The notes under the pieces: model-generated
The model's database searches: none
What the model was told of the DNA's origin: nothing
Seen by the model: the letters and a program-made list of their open reading frames with translations, nothing else
Translations under genes and position numbers: made by a program
Assembly (NCBI GenBank): GCA_026710545.1
Contig: JAPOQU010000077.1
Location: 1-62,062, forward strand
Length of the DNA stretch: 62,062 nt
Source: Gammaproteobacteria bacterium
Lineage (GTDB): Bacteria > Pseudomonadota > Gammaproteobacteria > Eutrophobiales > Eutrophobiaceae
Direction: 5' to 3'
In this document: positions 8,381 through 41,985 of the stretch, piece after piece
How the letters are laid out: each line of letters opens with the position of its first letter
Position numbering within the stretch: position 1 is the first letter of the stretch

Positions 8381-8486
8381 CAGGGTTGGCATGGCGTTTT
8401 CAAGACACGCTGTGAATACTTCCCTGTACGCTCATCGCCAGCCTTCCTTGGCTGTCGACGTTCTTGAAAACGCCATGCCAACCCTG
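8381..8486. repeat. Variable-arm hairpin element, copy A
   Basis: Perfect 25-bp arms at 8381-8405 and 8462-8486 enclose a 56-bp centre. The centre begins with the box CGCTGTGAATACTTCCCTGT, shared with copies at 38414-38518 and 41811-41985, and then forms an inner stem CAGCC-ttccttGG-CTG. The arms follow a loose pattern (CAG..TTGG....GC.TTT..A.GAC) but differ in sequence between copies while staying self-complementary. It lies between convergent genes and could act as a bidirectional terminator. Confidence 0.85.
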
Positions 8487-8515: not shown

Positions 8516-9529
8516 CTAACCCGGGTGGGTTGAGCGGTATACCTCCCCGACCCAGTTGTTGATCACGGATTCGGCGCTGTCATGCCAGGTATTGTCCAGT
8601 GAAGGGCTGATTAACTGTTCCGGGAACGGCGGCAGTTCCCTGCCCCTGTTCCTGGCATCAACTACGCGTTCCCGGTATTCGGCCAGTATCGCCCTGGTCT
8701 GCAGGCTGAAATAATTCTCCGGGAACGGCGGGTAGATTCCCGCGTCACCGCCCATAAACCGTAACACCTCGCGTTTGTACTCCTTGAACAGGCTGTTCGC
8801 GTCGTATTCGGGATGTCCCTGGAAAAACACCAGCCGCAGGCCGTCATCGCTGGCGGCCAGGTGGACCCCCACCTCATCACTTTCAACCAGGACCTTCAGG
8901 CCCGCTTCGGCAAACTGTTGCGGCGTCACTGCATTGAAGCGGGAGTGGGGAATGTCAAAACGCGTATTCATGCCGGCCACCAGGGGATGTGAGCGTTCCC
9001 GGACCCGGTGTGAATAAACTCCCCAGCACTTGCGCGCAAGCGGGATACGCTTCTGGCCGTAACGGAACTGCAACAGGGCGTGGGTAGCGAGGCAGGAACA
9101 CAATATGGACGTGACATTGCCGTAAGCCCAGTTAACCACGTCAATCAGCGGACTCCAGAACTCCTGGCGGTCCAGAGCCGGGTCGACTACGTTCGCCCCG
9201 GTGATGATCAACGCGTCCAGCCGGTCGGACTGGATTTGCTCGAAACTCCGGTAATACTTCTCGACGTGTTCCCGGCCTTCCCTGCCGCGCTGCAATTCCT
9301 CCAGGGTAAACGGGTGCATGTAAAACCTGGCTATCTGGTTGCTTTCACCCACCAACCGGAAGAATTGCCTTTCCGTGGCCTCCAGGGCCTTGTCCGGCAT
9401 CATGTTCAACAGGCCGATATGCAGTTCGCGCACTTCCCGGGTCTCGGCAGTATCCCTGGCTATCACGAGACTGCCTTCACTCTGAAGCCGCCCGAAGCTG
9501 GGTAAATCGGTATTCGCCACCAACGGCAC
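8516..9529 (-). CDS. metA: Homoserine O-acyltransferase, MetA type (probably succinyltransferase)
   Basis: MetA-type enzymes transfer an acyl group from acyl-CoA to homoserine, the first committed step of methionine synthesis. Family features in this 337-residue protein: L-N-M-M-P-D-K near residue 41, L-I-I-T-G-A near 107, the probable catalytic Cys146 in C-L-A-T-H, W-G-V-Y-S-H near 173, I-P-H-S-R-F-N near 197, and G-H-P-E-Y-D near 238. It is somewhat longer than E. coli MetA and diverged in the T-G-A-x-x segment that influences acyl choice, so succinyl against acetyl cannot be settled. A P-loop ATPase gene ends 2 bases upstream, so the two are co-transcribed. Confidence 0.85.
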   Translation of the reverse strand: MPLVANTDLPSFGRLQSEGSLVIARDTAETREVRELHIGLLNMMPDKALEATERQFFRLVGESNQIARFYMHPFTLEELQRGREGREHVEKYYRSFEQIQSDRLDALIITGANVVDPALDRQEFWSPLIDVVNWAYGNVTSILCSCLATHALLQFRYGQKRIPLARKCWGVYSHRVRERSHPLVAGMNTRFDIPHSRFNAVTPQQFAEAGLKVLVESDEVGVHLAASDDGLRLVFFQGHPEYDANSLFKEYKREVLRFMGGDAGIYPPFPENYFSLQTRAILAEYRERVVDARNRGRELPPFPEQLISPSLDNTWHDSAESVINNWVGEVYRSTHPG

Positions 9530-38374: not shown

Positions 38375-38413
38375 CTGGAAGGCCTATAAAGCTATTCACT
38401 GTAAGCTCCTCAA

Positions 38414-38518
38414 ACAGTTTTGGAGCAGGCTTTCAGGACCCGCTGTGAATACATCCCTGTACGCTTACCATCCGCTATCCCTGCGGATGATAGTCCTGAA
38501 AGCCTGCTCCAAAACTGT
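38414..38518. repeat. Variable-arm hairpin element, copy B
   Basis: Perfect 26-bp arms at 38414-38439 and 38493-38518 enclose a 53-bp centre. That centre is identical at 52 of 53 positions to the (inverted) centre of the copy at 41908-41960: box CCGCTGTGAATACATCCCTG, then an inner stem CATCCGC/GCGGATG. The arms differ strongly from those of the other copies. It lies between the convergent aas and PIMT genes. Confidence 0.9.
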
Positions 38519-38545
38519 CTGGACTCTCGTTGGATGACCAGGTTA

Positions 38546-39328
38546 TCAGGGGCTAATTTTCTGACTATCTCCTTTGACAAAAGGCACAAATCCCACAGGC
38601 AGGATGTCCGTGACCGTGATCTCTCCGGTTTGCTGTTTTTCCAGCACTTGAAGTGATTGATACCCATGTTGCGGGCCGACCGGCACCACCATGCGTGCGC
38701 CGGTTTTTAACTGATCGATCAAGGGTTGGGGCACCTCCTCAGGAGCGGCCGTCACAATTATTGCATCGAAAGGCGCATGTTCCTCCCAACCGATGTAACC
38801 GTCTCCGATCTTCACTGTCACATTATCGTAACCGAGTCGCACCAGTGTATCCTCTGCCCTCTTACCCAGTGATTCGATGATCTCTATGGTGTACACATGG
38901 CGCACCAGAGCGGCCAGGACCGCCGCCTGGTAACCCGAACCCGTGCCGATCTCCAGGACGGTCATGTTTTCATCCACGCCCAGCAGGTGCGTCATCAGTG
39001 CAACGATATAAGGCTGTGAGATAGTCTGGCCCTCACCGATAGGCAGTGCGTTATTCAAATAGGCAAGTGCGCGTAAGGAAGGGGGCACGAATTCATGGCG
39101 CGGCGCCGCAGCCACGGCCTGCACCACCTTTTTATCCAGCGCCTCTATGCCGGTATAACTGCGGGTGTCGGCCACCATCTCCTCTACTTCGGCAAGCATC
39201 TCCCTGCGCGCCGTTTCATATTCCTGCTGCGCGCACAGACTGCCGGGGATGGAAATTAAAACGAGAAAACCGTAAACCGCCATTCTGCGCAGGCAAAGTG
39301 GCGGAAGCCGGGTGTCAGACAATCCCAC
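38546..39328 (-). CDS. Protein-L-isoaspartate O-methyltransferase paralogue with signal peptide
   Basis: The catalytic part (about residues 60-255) is a clear PIMT: L-P-I-G-E-G-Q-T-I-S-Q-P-Y near 95, V-L-E-I-G-T-G-S-G-Y-Q-A-A near 123, G-D-G-Y-I-G-W near 168. Unlike the pcm at 27518 it begins with a hydrophobic leader: C-L-R-R then A-V-Y-G-F-L-V-L-I-S-I-P-G-S-L-C-A-Q-Q, a likely signal peptide. Start choice is open: GTG 39328, TTG 39322 (AGGGGG five bases upstream) or ATG 39283; only the first two keep the basic n-region. It overlaps or abuts the SDR gene upstream. Export of a SAM-dependent enzyme is puzzling. Confidence 0.85.
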   Translation of the reverse strand: MGLSDTRLPPLCLRRMAVYGFLVLISIPGSLCAQQEYETARREMLAEVEEMVADTRSYTGIEALDKKVVQAVAAAPRHEFVPPSLRALAYLNNALPIGEGQTISQPYIVALMTHLLGVDENMTVLEIGTGSGYQAAVLAALVRHVYTIEIIESLGKRAEDTLVRLGYDNVTVKIGDGYIGWEEHAPFDAIIVTAAPEEVPQPLIDQLKTGARMVVPVGPQHGYQSLQVLEKQQTGEITVTDILPVGFVPFVKGDSQKISP

Positions 39329-40155: not shown

Positions 40156-40974
40156 ATAAGCGTTATTATTCCCTGTTATAACCGCGCGCACCTGCTGCCA
40201 CGGTGCCTGGATTCGGTGCTCGCGCAGGAGTTCAGGCCTCTTGAAATCATTGTTGTCGACGACGGGTCAACCGACTCAACTCGATCTCTGCTACAGGGCA
40301 GCTACCCCGGTATCAGGATAATCAGCCAGGAAAACAAGGGGGTGAGCGCGGCCAGGAACGCGGGCATCAGCGCCGCAAAAGGCGATTGGCTGGCCTTCCT
40401 CGATTCGGATGATACCTGGTTCCCCGCCAAGCTGGGACGGCAGGTACGGGCTGTCGAGGCATCTCCCGGCAGCAATATCGTGCATACCGATGAGATCTGG
40501 ATTCGCAACGGCGTCCGGGTCAACCCCCAGCGCAAACACAGGAAATACGGCGGCTCGATCTTCAAACACTGCCTGCCTCTCTGTGTCATCTCCCCTTCAT
40601 CCGTCATGATTCACCGGCGCGTGTTCGACCGGGTCGGCCTGTTCGATGAAACGCTGCCGGTCTGCGAGGATTATGACTTATGGCTGCGCATCTGCGCCCG
40701 GATGCCGGTACTGTTTGTCCGGGAACCCCTGGTCACCAAGTACGGCGGGCATGATGATCAACTCTCAAGCCGCTACCGGGGCATGGACCGCTACCGCATC
40801 AGGTCGATCGACAGGGTTCTCAATGAAGTGGAACTGGAAAGTTCTGACAGGAAAGCAGCAATAGATACACTGGTCAGCAAGACCAGGATCTACCTGAACG
40901 GCGCCAGGAAACACAACAACCGGGTATTTGTCCAGGAGTGTGAACAGCTGCTGGAACAATACGTAACAAGCTGA
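40153..40974 (+). CDS. Family 2 glycosyltransferase
   Basis: A GT-A glycosyltransferase of 273 residues starting M-I-S-V-I-I-P-C-Y-N-R-A, with V-V-D-D-G-S-T-D-S-T near residue 35, N-K-G-V-S-A-A-R-N-A-G, the metal-binding D-S-D-D near 87 and E-D-Y-D-L-W-L-R near 171. It would transfer a sugar from a nucleotide-sugar to an unknown acceptor. The start codon lies inside an inverted repeat. The stop overlaps the next gene start (ATGA), so it is coupled to the nucleosidase-like gene; no polysaccharide cluster is present. Confidence 0.9.
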   Translation: MISVIIPCYNRAHLLPRCLDSVLAQEFRPLEIIVVDDGSTDSTRSLLQGSYPGIRIISQENKGVSAARNAGISAAKGDWLAFLDSDDTWFPAKLGRQVRAVEASPGSNIVHTDEIWIRNGVRVNPQRKHRKYGGSIFKHCLPLCVISPSSVMIHRRVFDRVGLFDETLPVCEDYDLWLRICARMPVLFVREPLVTKYGGHDDQLSSRYRGMDRYRIRSIDRVLNEVELESSDRKAAIDTLVSKTRIYLNGARKHNNRVFVQECEQLLEQYVTS

Positions 40975-41789
40975 TGCTGCATATAATCTGTGCCCTGAAA
41001 CCCGAGTCCCGGCCGTTGCAGGAACATTTTGAACTGCGACCCCTGCCAGGCGCAGCTTCGATCTACCAGAACCCGGAAGCGCGCCTCACCCTCACCTTGT
41101 CAGGCATCGGCAAATCCGCTGCGGCAGCGGCGGTCGCCCGCACCCGCGACCATTTCAGGGCCGGCAGGTCGCACGCCTGGCTGAATCTCGGGATTGCAGG
41201 CCATGCCAGCCTGCCGCTCGGCCAGGCGGCCGTCATCAACAAGGTAACCGATGCCGCTTCGGGCAAAACCTGGTACCCATCCCTGGTTTTCACCACGACG
41301 CTGCCTGCCCGCGACCTGCTGACCCTGGACCAGCCGGACAACGACTACCGGGAGGAATTATTCGACATGGAGTGCGCCGGATTTTTTCAGGCTGCAAACG
41401 AATGTGCAACCCTGGAACTGGTACAGGCATTGAAGATAATCTCGGATAACGCCGACCAATCCATGGACCGCATCAACCCGGACCTTGTCAGTCGCCTGGT
41501 GACGCAAAACCTGCCCGTAATTGAAGAGGTCATTGAACAACTGCTTGCTCTCTCGGAACTGCAACAACGCCTCAACGACCCGGGCCCGGACTACCATGTG
41601 ATTATCAGACACCGGCATTTTACCGTTAGCCAGGGACACAAGTTGCAGTCTTCACTGAGAAAATGGCGGGCACTGTACCCCGGAGATACAGGCCTTGCCG
41701 ACCGCCTGGCCGGGATGAAAACTGCCGCAGACATCCTCCGGCTGCTGCAGGACGAACTTGCGAAGACACCGATCAGATTTAACAAATAA
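40974..41789 (+). CDS. Nucleoside phosphorylase / MTA-SAH nucleosidase-like protein
   Basis: A PNP/UDP-family protein of 271 residues. Visible features: S-G-I-G-K-S-A-A-A near residue 43, N-L-G-I-A-G-H near 71, the purine/ribose-contacting F-D-M-E133-C-A-G, and the catalytic-type I-S-D158-N-A-D. About 85 extra residues follow the core. Relatives remove the base from methylthioadenosine, S-adenosylhomocysteine or 5'-deoxyadenosine. It overlaps the glycosyltransferase stop and is followed, after a repeat, by a spore photoproduct lyase-like radical SAM gene, whose by-product could be its substrate. Confidence 0.8.
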   Translation: MLHIICALKPESRPLQEHFELRPLPGAASIYQNPEARLTLTLSGIGKSAAAAAVARTRDHFRAGRSHAWLNLGIAGHASLPLGQAAVINKVTDAASGKTWYPSLVFTTTLPARDLLTLDQPDNDYREELFDMECAGFFQAANECATLELVQALKIISDNADQSMDRINPDLVSRLVTQNLPVIEEVIEQLLALSELQQRLNDPGPDYHVIIRHRHFTVSQGHKLQSSLRKWRALYPGDTGLADRLAGMKTAADILRLLQDELAKTPIRFNK

Positions 41790-41810: not shown

Positions 41811-41985
41811 CAGGTTTGGATAAGCGTTTTGATGTATACCCTCCCTGGTATACACCCTACGGGCACCCGTCGGGTGTCCAAATCTGCTCCTGGCAGATTT
41901 GTTACACTATCATCCGCAGGGACAGCGGATGGTAAGCGTACAGGGATGTATTCACAGCGGGTCTTAAAACGCTTATCCAAACCTG
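41811..41985. repeat. Variable-arm hairpin element, copy C, carrying an inserted hairpin array
   Basis: Arms of 20 bp (41811-41830 and 41966-41985) enclose, in inverted orientation, the same 53-bp centre as copy B (41908-41960). Between the left arm and the centre are 77 bases (41831-41907) of small palindromes: GTATACC/GGTATAC and AAATCTGC/GCAGATTT, resembling the array after mltD. The element separates the nucleosidase gene from the SPL gene, and a good ribosome-binding site (AGGAG) and ATG at 41801 lead straight into it. Confidence 0.85.

Follow-up and report, generated by a model that had tools for sequence, protein, structure and literature searches.

A gammaproteobacterial family of hairpin repeats with a fixed GGA-bearing core and arms that change together

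The stretch of DNA analysed here, all 62,062 nucleotides of contig JAPOQU010000077.1 (GenBank assembly GCA_026710545.1, Gammaproteobacteria bacterium) and called the window below, holds three short repeats in which a nearly constant core is enclosed by long inverted arms. The arms match closely within each copy and differ from copy to copy. How can both arms of a palindrome change and still pair, and what keeps the core constant? The first-pass annotation of the window had proposed selection for pairing or an arm-copying mechanism such as template switching, and had argued that the repeats are not an ordinary MITE. Both statements are supported by the comparisons described here, and traces of both processes are visible.

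All three elements lie where they had been reported (8381-8486, 38414-38518 and 41811-41985). Element 1 (8381..8486) is a simple form of which the minus strand is the structured one. Its variable arms (8381..8405 and 8462..8486) pair at 25 of 25 positions and enclose a putative CsrA/RsmA-type core site on the minus strand, GUACAGGGAAGU (8418..8429), recognized by its likeness to the consensus RUACARGGAUGU, together with a second minus-strand hairpin, identified from sequence and fold, with the loop AAGGAA (8439..8454). Element 2 (38411..38521, minus strand) is also simple. The earlier arm lengths of 25, 26 and 20 bp hold for elements 1 and 3, whereas the arms of element 2 (38411..38439 and 38493..38521) are slightly longer, with 28 of 29 positions paired. 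Its putative core site, GUACAGGGAUGU (38451..38462, minus strand), matches the SELEX consensus exactly, and its second hairpin has the loop AGGGAUA (38469..38489, minus strand; sequence and fold). Element 3 (41811..41985, plus strand) is a composite form in the opposite orientation to elements 1 and 2, with arms (41811..41830 and 41966..41985) that pair at 20 of 20 positions. It contains a second hairpin with the loop AGGGACA (41911..41931, plus strand; sequence and fold), the putative core site GUACAGGGAUGU (41938..41949, plus strand; motif match) and a nested module of two hairpins, seen in the sequence, with GGA loops on the opposite strand (41831..41909, minus strand). Between elements 2 and 3 the core differs by a single position, as had been stated. 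Elements 1, 2 and 3 have predicted folds of -63.1, -70.3 and -90.2 kcal/mol, respectively.

The placement of the elements at gene ends also holds. Element 1 is 30 bp past the stop codon of gene 8516-9529 (minus strand), element 2 is 25 bp past that of gene 38546-39328 (minus strand), and element 3 is 22 bp past that of gene 40974-41789 (plus strand); the first two lie between convergent genes and the third between tandem genes. Among 224 elements with both neighbours called, 87 have convergent, 116 tandem and 21 divergent neighbours. Spurious ORFs cross the repeats at three loci (L086, L117 and L097; for example MDGGAERTGTYSQR and PTWTYLR), and such ORFs may figure as hypothetical proteins in databases.

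The core pattern matches three times in the window and never in 100 shuffled windows. Across the 4.43 Mb window genome it finds 17 copies, compared with none for a reversed control pattern. Twelve of these copies have perfect arms (19-26 bp), four have arms with one or two mismatches and one is without a second arm, L009 being a truncated copy of this kind; seven of the 17 are composites, their loops holding additional small hairpins. The element is present in 17 of 96 genomes of relatives (the window genome included), in up to 93 copies. A GTDB genome scan found at least 119 further stretches in other Gammaproteobacteria, and the genera among the matches listed include Halomonas, Marinobacter, Microbulbifer, Sedimenticola, Thiohalobacter, Pectobacterium and others. 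Seventeen Marinobacter genomes, picked for having a copy, carry 9-54 copies each. Copies were counted by pattern search throughout, and each figure is a minimum. No match to the element was found in the phage, plasmid and E. coli collections, and a literature search for the core sequence gave no match. The longest perfect arms seen, 49 bp, belong to a copy in a groundwater MAG (L164, minus strand). A MAG labelled Klebsiella pneumoniae (CAMBTO010000005, isolate TrH-03may19-115; L109) carries the element of G029 (L022, G029:C5), a genome from the family of the window's genome; the Klebsiella label is probably wrong.

The YPAL or RU-2 repeats have been described as mobile, intergenic elements that have filled and empty sites and lie next to dyad symmetry (PMC2229807, PMC2759123). 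Filled and empty sites between relatives occur here as well, at window site 1 and at the Marinobacter ureF-ureG and trpC loci. No element is present at window site 1 in G001, G002 or G003, and the site orthologous to window site 3 is empty in G004 and G005. The intergenic region orthologous to window site 2 is filled in G001 and G006 and is without the element in G002. In Marinobacter, the ureF-ureG site is filled in G099, where the copy (L354) interrupts the urease operon, and empty in five other genomes. Empty sites lack the arms. A further trait of YPAL/RU-2 is target-site duplications of 3-26 bp; around the present elements the intergenic sequence has diverged too far to mark precisely where each element ends. 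At the ureF-ureG position of G107 and G108 there is an element with different arms in the same place. At L181 in G001, which shares window site 2, the outer arm sequence ACAGGTTTGGATGGTTTCGTGC is tandemly repeated upstream of the element, and at two orthologous sites in sister genomes (L181, L400) another palindrome, GGGGTCAGAGTAA..TTACTCTGACCCC, adjoins or replaces the element.

The arms are variable throughout the family. Arm positions 12-28 are near maximal entropy in many columns, and even the outer arm ends are only weakly conserved in the Marinobacter profile, so that the conserved terminal inverted repeats of an ordinary MITE are lacking. Because earlier counts of mismatches and pairing had used arms selected for pairing, the claim of covariation rests on a test in which the register was fixed by the inner seven pairs only. 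In 127 Marinobacter copies, pairing at arm positions 10-28 is 0.77-1.00, against 0.27-0.80 expected from column composition, with covariation z of 11.7-17.7, and all four pair types occur at every one of these positions. The 52 copies from the window's genus give z of 4.5-10.3 in the same test. Since the copies share descent in part, these z values are not strict probabilities. The arms are clearly coupled, and the first-pass annotation would have been overturned by arms conserved across most copies or by flanking sequence with chance complementarity, neither of which describes the family.

The two arms also change together at orthologous sites. In 22 alignable, non-overlapping Marinobacter element pairs (600 arm pairs), we found 72 two-arm changes (45 transitions and 27 transversions) versus 27 one-arm differences. 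The flanks of these pairs differ by 13.3%, and if the arms had changed independently at that rate, a rough estimate would be about 138 one-arm differences with few matched changes. Transversions make up 0.375 of the paired arm changes and 0.41 of the changes in the flanks. Arm changes are clustered (p 0.0016), some as mirrored blocks (L283 and L294 versus L327; also L286, L292 and L321), and mirrored 1-nt indels are found in L286/L321 and L130/L323. Such a combination of transversions, blocks and indels is not readily expected if compensation ran through G.U intermediates alone.

The core itself has been turned around in place. It is inverted at four orthologous sites, three in the window's genus (L222/L234, L221/L230 and L216/L220) and one in Marinobacter (L260/L322), while the arms, and one long flank or both, still match; the spacers align at 97.5-106 after inversion versus 15.5-29 as placed. 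At window site 3, G003 and G006 carry oppositely oriented elements, and the arms there have diverged. Homogenization of arms with inversion of the spacer is a reported outcome of template switching between inverted repeats (PMC8604942), and the same process has been put forward as a source of RNA stems and a means of preserving them (PMC8794818). Both parts of this outcome are found in the present family, and together with the flank-like transition/transversion mix and the mirrored blocks and indels they bear the trace of arm copying. Template switching is the best-supported mechanism for the arm changes, with recombination between the arms as a possible alternative.

The mismatches that remain in the arms carry the trace of a constraint on pairing. 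Leftover transition mismatches are biased toward A.C on the core strand as written, which is G.U on its complement, by 113 to 18 in reverse (p 5e-18), or by 63 loci to 10 when collapsed by locus. All four gene contexts (sense, antisense, convergent, divergent) show the bias, and orientation relative to tandem genes is random (56:60). Hence one strand of the element itself is kept foldable, as RNA or single-stranded DNA, and co-transcription with an upstream gene is not the only reason; function in the 3′-UTR as the sole cause of pairing was rejected on the same grounds. Cytosine deamination alone was likewise rejected as the cause of the strand bias, the orthologous partners of the G.U cells being A-T in nine cases and G-C in five. 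The bias suggests selection. Single-stranded DNA instead of RNA could lie behind it.

On the complementary strand the core reads as a CsrA/RsmA-type site, which the first-pass annotation had missed. In 234 of 235 copies this strand carries UACANGGANGU, with a leading G in 221. ANGGA is found in the second hairpin of 194 of the 215 simple copies, over 54 different stems, and CAGGA in most of the remainder. The published CsrA SELEX consensus is RUACARGGAUGU. The elements thus combine ANGGA in a hairpin loop with a site like this consensus, and the match, noticed after the fact, suggests CsrA as a candidate ligand of the GGA loops. A csrA gene was found in all 18 genomes tested and is also carried by element-free genomes, so that its presence is necessary for such a reading and does not discriminate. 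Nested modules are GGA hairpins as well, some of them with GGA on the other strand. One was gained in the inner loop at the trpC site of G100 (L337), where the element of relatives has the simple form. The opposite-facing modules, the random gene orientation, which makes transcription of the structured strand in antisense copies hard to account for, the csrA genes of element-free genomes and the strand of the Rfam Ysr224 model discussed below all count against the explanation favoured here.

Taken as a whole, the observations are best explained by YPAL/RU-2-like hairpin repeats with a CsrA-type core, template-switched arms and strand-specific selection, an account we hold to have a little better than an even chance of being right. 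The complement of the core would fold into a long stem presenting at least two short GGA-loop hairpins, mostly A-N-GGA, and the core may stay fixed because these loops are recognized. As the arms need only pair, their sequence is free. Arm-to-arm template switching by a polymerase within the palindrome would copy one arm onto the other, an outcome visible at the orthologous sites, and sometimes flip the core in place, while selection would tolerate G.U and not A.C on the functional strand. The likeliest role would be that of a CsrA-binding RNA element or decoy spreading by insertion near gene ends. A different account would dispense with arm copying and have the hairpin act in mRNA 3′ ends, with single mutations compensated through G.U intermediates under selection alone. 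The 113:18 bias, the persistence of G.U cells at orthologous sites and the enrichment of elements near stop codons and in convergent intergenic regions agree with it, as do reports that YPAL is co-transcribed with upstream genes and affects upstream transcripts (PMC2229807, PMC2759123), for which protection of the upstream transcript has been proposed. We nevertheless consider purely compensatory selection unlikely, given that paired transversions are as frequent relative to transitions as in the flanks, that blocks and indels are mirrored, that cores are inverted between matching arms, and that orientation is random with the G.U bias extending to antisense and divergent copies.

A mobile element acting as single-stranded DNA (REP/RAYT, IS200/IS605-like or another system), in which strand bias and GGA loops would reflect a recombinase rather than RNA and CsrA, could account for a bias that belongs to the element itself whatever its gene context, for two hairpins per unit and for filled and empty sites. 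No copies were found near 15 Y1-transposase loci (flanks of about 1.5 kb to either side, contig ends permitting), however, and on this ground membership of REP/RAYT was rejected. G001, with 23 copies, yielded no Y1 gene, no GTAG-type tag was noted, and the loops fit the CsrA consensus, with most of their variation at its N positions; a single-stranded DNA system is accordingly rather improbable. Overwriting or reinsertion of whole copies at the same site, by ectopic conversion from copies with matched arms, would suit L301/L317, where flanks are 90% identical and arms unrelated, and several intergenic regions that hold different elements in sister species. Most changes, however, are partial, keep the outer arm and the core and are mirrored around the unchanged core, and inverted cores retain the site's own arms, which leaves this explanation with a very small chance. 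The gene-end position of all three window copies would also be expected of ordinary intrinsic terminators or of chance inverted flanks around a repeated core. Chance flanks are refuted by the fixed-register test, with covariation z above 10, and by the absence of arms from empty sites; the 3′ flank of the structured strand leans toward A, without a U-run, in the window copies and in the profile of 112 Marinobacter copies, so intrinsic terminators were rejected and we give this idea virtually no credence.

If the account of template-switched hairpins with a CsrA-type core is extended to function, the elements could be class-wide mobile CsrA/RsmA-binding hairpins that supply each genome with tens of sites acting as decoys or controls and are kept functional by template switching, which rewrites both arms and flips the core. 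We regard this as a real prospect that falls somewhat short of even chances. If true, a mobile element would be linked to a global regulator, and the repeats would serve as a natural archive of bacterial template switching. The question of how long RNA stems remain fully paired as their sequence changes is an old one, argued mostly with rRNA. With tens of independent stems per genome, orthologues, empty sites and marked orientation, rates of arm conversion and core inversion become measurable. Should the GGA loops bind CsrA, genomes such as those of Marinobacter would hold dozens of unrecognized CsrA sites, and models of CsrA titration would change. The Yersinia YPAL repeat also finds its place within a much wider family.

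Several known systems share features with the elements. CsrB, CsrC and RsmX-Y-Z decoy RNAs are single genes with their own promoters and terminators. Like the element, they present several GGA-loop hairpins on one strand; the element, in contrast, is an insertion scattered in many copies and closed by a long stem of variable sequence. The TwoAYGGAY model (RF01731) matches a Marinobacter copy on the GGA strand at 22.3 bits, below its threshold of 43. Integron attC sites bear their conserved sites in the arms and not in the loop, and were dropped as candidates for this reason. REP/BIME sequences with RAYT (GTAG and CGTC repeats, PMC3733652) are likewise short, palindromic, intergenic and often found by gene ends; the element differs in its variable arms around a fixed core and in the absence of its copies from the surroundings of the 15 Y1-transposase loci. 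Published cases of hairpin maintenance by template switching (PMC8794818, PMC8604942, PMC7202029) also show arm homogenization, multi-base compensatory changes and spacer inversion. They concern RNA genes, yeast coding genes and E. coli quasipalindromes, whereas the traces described here are in a bacterial repeat family, at many loci and with spacers of about 55 bp.

The closest relatives, already known in Yersinia (YPAL/RU-2 and Ysr224), had been missed by the first-pass annotation. An Rfam scan of the window at threshold gave tRNAs only, and the window copies do not match Ysr224 (RF02770) at the Rfam threshold. This Yersinia sRNA model does match Pectobacterium copy L079 across the element (73.3 bits, threshold 70) and, weakly, a Marinobacter copy (22.4 bits). 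The model runs on the other strand from the GGA loops, with its start inside one arm, and its strand is in tension with a reading on the GGA strand. The published Y. pestis RU-2 (YPAL) sequence holds the same core and a second GGA hairpin. It is 88.9% identical to Pectobacterium copy L090 over 72 nt (E 2e-19) and 82.6% identical to a Marinobacter copy over 46 nt (E 6e-4), and scores 55 and 47 against window elements 1 and 2, compared with shuffle maxima of 42 and 39. Judged by transitive homology through the common core, the window elements are members of a wider YPAL/RU-2 family. YPAL/RU-2 as described is confined to Yersinia and Erwinia/Pectobacterium and measures about 168 bp, while the family here has a far wider host range; arm coevolution, core flipping and CsrA are not described for it in PMC2229807 and PMC2759123. 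The YPAL/RU-2 precedent is thus known, and what is new is the class-wide reach, the coevolution of arms with flipping of the core, and the CsrA-type sites that the core appears to carry.
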